From contig CANJIM010000032.1 of the NCBI GenBank assembly GCA_947474495.1, positions 1 to 37,132 of the forward strand: a stretch of DNA of 37,132 nucleotides, given 5' to 3'. A model generated the notes under the pieces. The model made no database searches. It saw only the letters and a list, made by a program, of their open reading frames with translations, and was not told where the DNA came from. This DNA is from Rhodospirillaceae bacterium (lineage in GTDB: Bacteria > Pseudomonadota > Alphaproteobacteria > SMXQ01). Below, one piece after another: positions 18,474 through 19,350 of the stretch (its first letter is position 1; the number at the start of each line of letters is the position of its first letter). The position numbers and the translations under genes are program-made.

Positions 18474-18501
18474 GAAAAACCGCCAACACGGTTGGCGGTT
18501 T
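18474..18501 (-). terminator. Rho-independent terminator behind the Q/N-rich protein gene
   Basis: The arms AAACCGCCAAC (18477-18487) and GTTGGCGGTTT (18491-18501) form an 11-bp perfect stem with a 3-base loop. On the minus strand the stem is followed by a T-rich run (TTCTTT), so it ends transcription coming from 18587 and insulates the cytochrome-like gene. Confidence 0.85.
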
Positions 18502-18586: not shown

Positions 18587-18790
18587 TTAGCGCTTCGGTT
18601 CTTGACCGGGCTGCTGAGTCTTGTTCGCCTGCTGATCCTGCTGGCGGTCTGCCTGCTTGTTCGAATCCTGCTTGTTCGGATCCTGCTGGTTCTGCTGCTG
18701 CGGCTTCTGCTGCTGCTGACCCGGCTGCTGGTTCGGATTCTGCTGACCCTGCTGCTGGGGCTTCTGGCTAGAATGCTTTTCGTCGGCCAT
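18587..18790 (-). CDS. Small Q/N/P/K-rich disordered protein, predicted general-stress gene
   Basis: A 67-residue protein starting MADEKHSSQKPQQQ, almost entirely Gln, Asn, Pro, Lys and Asp, with no hydrophobic core, signal peptide or cysteine; it is expected to be intrinsically disordered. I recognise no family. The start at 18790 is chosen because AGGAGAG lies just upstream on the minus strand, and the longer frame (to 18838) would begin before that site at the predicted transcription start. A GGAAC-N17-GTT promoter of the EcfG general-stress type lies 57 bases before the start, and a strong terminator follows. The setting suggests a stress-induced protein; its role is unknown. Confidence 0.7.
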   Translation of the reverse strand: MADEKHSSQKPQQQGQQNPNQQPGQQQQKPQQQNQQDPNKQDSNKQADRQQDQQANKTQQPGQEPKR

Positions 18791-18846
18791 GATGCTCTCC
18801 TGAATTTCGCGTGAACATGCGAAGCGGCTGCCTCGCATATGATGTT

Positions 18847-18871
18847 AACGCGAGGTCTTTGGCGCCGTTCC
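18847..18871 (-). promoter_or_regulatory. EcfG-type general stress promoter for the Q/N-rich protein gene
   Basis: On the minus strand, GGAAC at 18871-18867 (-35) and CGTT at 18850-18847 (-10) give GGAAC-N17-GTT, a perfect match to the alphaproteobacterial EcfG consensus. Transcription would start near 18839, about 50 bases before the ATG at 18790. Confidence 0.75.
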
Positions 18872-18912
18872 GACGGAACCGTCTGTTCCGCAGGAACCTA
18901 TCGCGAGCGTGA

Positions 18913-18990
18913 TCAGAGCACGTTGAATAGATAGAGCAGGATGATGATGGGGATCGGAATGCCGAGAACCCAGAGCAAAATGCCGCGCAT
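18913..18990 (-). CDS. 25-residue membrane peptide, predicted general-stress gene
   Basis: This short frame encodes a peptide beginning MRGILLWVLGIPIPII and ending in Val-Leu, almost wholly hydrophobic with a G-I-P-I-P kink in the middle, so one membrane span or a re-entrant helix is expected. A perfect AAGGAG ribosome-binding site lies 6 bases before the ATG, and an EcfG-type promoter lies 32 bases before it. Similar very short I-P-I-P-I peptides occur in Rhizobiales to my knowledge, usually unannotated or hypothetical. It lies between two other small genes on the same strand. Function unknown. Confidence 0.7.
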   Translation of the reverse strand: MRGILLWVLGIPIPIIILLYLFNVL

Positions 18991-19021
18991 GATCGTCTCC
19001 TTGCGTTGATATCGTCGAAAT

Positions 19022-19046
19022 AACGCAAAGTGACGGTCTAGGTTCC
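19022..19046 (-). promoter_or_regulatory. EcfG-type general stress promoter for the 25-residue membrane peptide gene
   Basis: On the minus strand, GGAAC at 19046-19042 and CGTT at 19025-19022 give GGAAC-N17-GTT, with the same spacing as the promoter at 18847-18871. The predicted transcription start near 19014 leaves a leader of about 24 bases with the AAGGAG site. Confidence 0.75.
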
Positions 19047-19080: not shown

Positions 19081-19350
19081 TCAGCGGTTAGGGCCGCGGT
19101 CTTTGAGCTGCCAGACAAAAAAGCCGGCAACCGCCAGCGGCACAATCAGAACGAATGCCTGAAAGGGCATGCTCGGCCATACCGAATAGAGCTTCAACAG
19201 CAGCAGCAATAAGCCAAGCGTGATGGCGAGCACCACCAGAGCGCCGAACAGGGCATAGCCCCGCGTTTTGCCGGCCTTATTCAAGACCATGCCGACGGCG
19301 GCGGCGGGCAGCAATGTGGACAGCAAGATGATGAGGAGTTCCGGCGACAT
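19081..19350 (-). CDS. Small membrane protein of unknown function (89 residues)
   Basis: An 89-residue protein with three hydrophobic stretches: 5-22 (LLIILLSTLLPAAAVGMV), 32-54 and 61-80, with a short basic loop NKAGKTRG between the first two and a charged tail. No family was recognised. No strong ribosome-binding site is visible before the ATG at 19350. It lies upstream of the two EcfG-promoted small genes on the same strand, but I could not find an EcfG site in front of it. Uninterrupted coding with membrane-protein character supports a real gene. Confidence 0.6.
   Translation of the reverse strand: MSPELLIILLSTLLPAAAVGMVLNKAGKTRGYALFGALVVLAITLGLLLLLLKLYSVWPSMPFQAFVLIVPLAVAGFFVWQLKDRGPNR

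Follow-up and report, generated by a model that had tools for sequence, protein, structure and literature searches.

Two very small genes lie on the minus strand of the window, by which we mean the whole 37,132-nucleotide stretch of Rhodospirillaceae DNA that was analysed (contig C32 of an incomplete assembly, 96% complete in 127 contigs), and each follows a sequence resembling the promoters of the alphaproteobacterial general stress response. The locus thus raises the question of whether a stress sigma factor switches these genes on and what their products might do. The initial annotation had reported two minus-strand EcfG-type sites here, and both proved exact when written as GGAAC-N16-CGTT, which is equivalent to GGAAC-N17-GTT. 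P1 (GGAACCTAGACCGTCACTTTGCGTT, 19022-19046) is located 31 nt upstream of the start codon of a gene for a 25-residue membrane peptide, and P2 (GGAACGGCGCCAAAGACCTCGCGTT, 18847-18871) is located 56 nt upstream of a gene for a glutamine-rich protein. Both show the features of EcfG-type promoters: a -35 GGAAC, a -10 CGTT/GTT, a spacing of 16-17 to CGTT, and a gene close downstream. Base composition predicts ~0.25 exact N16 sites for the two strands of the window together, and only ~2e-4 same-strand pairs of exact N16 sites within 200 bp of each other, in line with the annotation's claim that the pair is unlikely to be due to chance. The annotation had also proposed examining conservation of the motifs upstream of orthologues. 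In the only other genome of the genus that was compared (G001, here the sister species), the two promoters are retained along with their genes; the promoters have the same 25-base length, with spacer identities of 8/16 for P1 and 10/16 for P2, and the DNA flanking the two genes is ~75% identical. The -35 element of P2 sits inside a tight inverted repeat (GGTTCCgtcGGAAC, 18865-18900, minus strand) that is also kept in the sister species, and in our species a second GGTTCC-N3-GGAAC copy is present just upstream of it. This repeat could be the site of an additional regulator.

Examination of the motif genome-wide showed that the bare pattern is not enriched, with 97 sites compared to 140 for the backward pattern, so a motif match alone means little. 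What separates true sites from background is position and conservation. When the flanks of all N16/N17 sites were taken (74 in our genome and 97 in the sister genome), 50 of our 74 sites had a positional match in the sister species. For permuted motifs in the same aligned blocks, the share matched was 34%, and each motif had only 0.42 conserved sites on average. The actual motif scored 51/52 in that test, a value that is biased upward because the sister loci had been chosen for having the motif; 50/74 is the fair figure. Downstream of our sites we found a CsbD gene divergent from a DUF3309 gene, as well as DUF3096, Transgly_assoc, Usp, and ferritin-like genes. PRC-barrel, S30AE/HPF ribosome-hibernation type, and pyridoxamine-oxidase-like genes were also present, the sites at the PRC-barrel and pyridoxamine-oxidase-like genes having no match in the sister species. 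The published Sphingomonas EcfG motif is GGAAC-N17-20-GTT, and the Sphingomonas EcfG regulon likewise includes a PRC-barrel gene (PMC6599016). Judged by conservation and gene content, the motif marks a true EcfG-type stress regulon of typical composition.

The lack of enrichment of the bare motif over its backward control would also fit a reading in which P1 and P2 are chance matches and the two genes depend on transcription that starts elsewhere, such as read-through from an 89-aa ORF at 19081-19350. The rarity of such pairs in the window makes this extremely improbable, as does the retention of both sites in the sister species despite their diverged spacers. Furthermore, the sites recur before other members of the peptide family, in many bacterial families and at a paralogue: both species carry a second copy of the peptide (MPIILWLLGVPFSIVILLLLFGVVSF) elsewhere, with an exact EcfG site located 33 nt upstream of the start. 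The annotation's assignment of P1 and P2 as EcfG stress promoters is thus supported by their conservation in the sister species, by the exact site at the paralogue, and by the typical EcfG regulon. The 89-aa ORF itself, on the minus strand between an acetyl-CoA synthetase-like gene and P1, is of a three-span membrane type and is conserved in the sister species; it matched no Pfam family above cut-off.

Both small genes have the good ribosome-binding sites that the annotation had described. The peptide gene (MRGILLWVLGIPIPIIILLYLFNVL, 18913-18990, minus strand) follows a Shine-Dalgarno sequence, AAGGAG (18997-19002, minus strand), that is kept in the sister species, and it is a conserved ORF whose codon changes are biased toward synonymous ones: nine codons differ synonymously and one by replacement, and the start changes from ATG to GTG. 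The second gene (18587-18790, minus strand) encodes a 67-aa Q/N-rich protein of disordered type and is preceded by AGGAG (18797-18801, minus strand) within a stretch identical in the sister species. The ORF as listed runs to 83 aa from an upstream ATG; we preferred the 67-aa start, which is preceded by the Shine-Dalgarno sequence and is itself conserved in the sister. Conservation of the Q-rich protein was assessed against the sister species only, in which the orthologue has 56 aa. The two differ by nine synonymous and eight replacement codons and by in-frame indels, while the ends MAD.K and QPGQEPKR and the Q-rich make-up are kept. We conclude that the Q-rich protein is the product of a true gene of the regulon. 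An intrinsic terminator with an 11-pair stem and a T tail (18477-18501, minus strand) ends the unit, and the sister species keeps the stem with paired changes. The 3' part gave no Rfam match above any gathering score, and the 3' untranslated stretch is ~79% identical between the species, near the local background; we therefore do not claim an RNA element there. That the peptide ORF is untranslated, the conserved element being an RNA or leader, is hardly credible given the nine synonymous changes to one replacement (start codon aside), the good Shine-Dalgarno sequences and start codons of most family members, and the conservation at the protein level across the class.

A profile search of 387 genomes of the class detected the family in 79 genomes at E ≤ 0.05 and in 63 at E ≤ 1e-4, so that at least 63 carry it. 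Members are 23-28 residues long, with a single hydrophobic span and, in most cases, a basic residue close to the N-terminus; a tryptophan, a glycine, and a proline are invariant across distant families in the arrangement W-x2-G-[IVM]-P. The peptide of the window fits this family definition, which is our own. No match to the family was found in Pfam, NCBIfam, or the PDB, nor did we find a description of it in the literature, and a tblastn search of a member against plasmids gave no match. Exact EcfG sites are positioned 15-70 nt upstream of 17 of 72 members (shuffles gave 0.05 and the backward motif none), including 13 of 68 outside our own genus. Sites with at least eight of nine matches are found upstream of 46 of the 72, compared to ~3 expected; the remaining 26 lack any site with at most one mismatch to the consensus. 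The family also co-occurs with NepR: 36 genomes have both (odds ratio 11.8, P = 2e-15, ignoring phylogeny and with incomplete NepR detection). From these searches we conclude that the predicted peptides form a class-wide, uncatalogued family. A small membrane protein of <30 aa, SEP6, has been described in Sinorhizobium (PMC10117765) and could be a relative, although it is likened here by its description and not by its sequence. In a small-genome alphaproteobacterium (G015; L013:1500-1800) in which NepR was undetected, a peptide gene is located directly 3' of a CsbD-like reading frame that apparently has no standard start, and no EcfG site is present upstream of the peptide gene.

In several genomes the peptide gene is located at or near the genes of the stress regulators themselves. 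In three species of one genus, it has its own exact EcfG site and lies between an EcfG-type sigma factor gene and phyR; in one of the three (G375), the PhyR was verified from the presence of a receiver and two sigma-like domains. Another genus has two species with the peptide gene 2.2 kb away from nepR, next to superoxide dismutase and further stress genes. In a third genus the distance to nepR is 0.4 kb, and the peptide gene lies behind a small gene that has an EcfG-like site. In two other genera (L314 and L316; L279 and L298), the peptide gene lies 3' of a small acidic gene with the pattern LT..K.K.L.QWE.DA....AE.EGM.GGEE. The one such acidic protein tested had no Pfam match, and it looks like another uncatalogued family of the stress regulon. 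We found no partner protein that is constant in the peptide neighborhoods, and any molecular role assigned to the peptide is for that reason a guess.

We also considered whether the 25-residue ORF could encode a hydrophobic peptide resembling a type I toxin, which would slow growth when induced under stress. Its size and hydrophobicity (GRAVY 2.10) are like those of small hydrophobic toxins. Against this, the tryptophan, glycine, and proline do not vary across distant families, the chromosomal positions are stable between species, one genus has the gene embedded within the stress-regulator locus, and no antitoxin-like element was seen in the sequence. We therefore regard a toxin as very unlikely. 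With its three invariant residues, the peptide more closely resembles a specific membrane protein with a single span than one that disrupts membranes. CydX, KdpF, and AcrZ, regulatory peptides of enteric bacteria that are short and have a single span, are similar to our peptide in size range and in having a single hydrophobic helix, and by analogy the peptide may work as they do, by binding a membrane complex. It differs from them in that there is no convincing match (one member matched CydX at E = 0.053) and no constant neighboring complex. Within its own genome, the peptide resembles DUF3309, DUF3096, and Transgly_assoc proteins in being short, hydrophobic, and under EcfG-type promoters. Unlike these, it is at most half as long, with one span, the W-x2-G-[IVM]-P signature, and no library model.

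Which sigma factor would read P1 and P2? ECF sigma factors with a PhyR_sigma2-like region 2 number two in our genome (on contigs C29 and C18) and three in the sister genome. The best match of our two among solved structures is 5uxx, which we take to be the Bartonella RpoE-NepR (EcfG) complex. The C29 factor has relatives in Betaproteobacteria at 44-49% identity, so this EcfG-like branch extends beyond Alphaproteobacteria. In the sister species, the third ECF paralogue is divergent from a 90-residue ORF that matches NepR (24.7 bits in the genome search compared to the curated cut-off of 25.7, and 23.8 on the protein alone), the pair lying at L051:1143-2404. An exact EcfG site is present upstream of this nepR and a one-mismatch site upstream of the sigma factor gene. 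The Pfam NepR model found no NepR in our own incomplete assembly, which misses the nepR-ecfG locus. A true absence of NepR from our genome, where the Pfam NepR and PhyR models had matched ECF sigma factor genes only, was considered and then set aside in view of the nepR-ecfG pair of the sister species. PhyR was not detected in either genome, both assemblies being incomplete, nor is there a phyR on either side of the pair on the sister nepR-ecfG contig.

The system thus resembles the PhyR-NepR-EcfG (ECF15) regulon in its GGAAC-N16/17-CGTT promoters, short leaders, and typical regulon genes, and in the sister's nepR adjoining an EcfG-like sigma factor gene, both with EcfG-type sites. It differs in that PhyR was not found in our genome or the sister's, where nepR and ecfG are divergent and lack an adjoining phyR. 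P1 and P2 might instead be read by an EcfG-like ECF sigma factor outside NepR/PhyR control. Such a reading would account for PhyR being undetected in both species of the genus, for the two factors on C29 and C18 standing alone without a NepR neighbor, and for their closest NCBIfam model being PRK12511, which they match below its cut-off. It is less readily reconciled with the NepR homologue that adjoins the third paralogue in the sister, with the EcfG-type sites at that locus, with 5uxx as the best structural match of both our factors, or with the general stress response content of the regulon, and we consider it unlikely. We strongly infer, from the sequence evidence, that the two genes are under stress regulation through an EcfG-type sigma factor.

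We consider it highly probable, on these comparisons, that P1 and P2 are EcfG-type promoters of stress-switched units for the peptide and for the Q-rich protein, and that the peptide family is a core output of the general stress response. Both promoters would be recognized by RNA polymerase with a sigma factor of the EcfG (general stress response) type, so that stress would turn on two separate small transcription units ending at the terminator. One would yield the 25-residue peptide of the inner membrane, and the other the soluble Q/N-rich protein of 67 residues. We would guess that the basic N-terminus of the peptide is cytoplasmic, that the helix bearing W-x2-G-[IVM]-P spans the inner membrane, and that its invariant residues contact a membrane-protein partner, such as a transporter, a respiratory enzyme, or a stress sensor kinase, whose activity or stability the peptide would adjust under stress. 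Binding to an inner-membrane partner is thus the most likely function that we can predict for the peptide, while the Q-rich protein is probably, again as a guess, a hydrophilic cytoplasmic protectant. The peptide, which one genus makes from the regulator locus itself, with the gene placed between ecfG and phyR, might be a feedback element as well as an output, acting on membrane sensor kinases or on another membrane component that controls PhyR, tuning or ending the response; we regard this more specific role as quite unlikely. The promoters and the regulon are of a known kind; what is new is the peptide, a member of the stress response that is absent from the catalogued families.

The alphaproteobacterial general stress response controls the survival of many free-living, symbiotic, and host-associated bacteria, and most of the genes that it switches on are without a known role. 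The peptide described here is too short for gene callers and family libraries, even though it is found throughout the class and some genomes encode it within the regulator locus. For an uncultured lineage in which PhyR was not found, the analysis predicts ~50 conserved EcfG-type promoters. Naming the family provides a definite, testable target in those laboratory alphaproteobacteria that carry the peptide.
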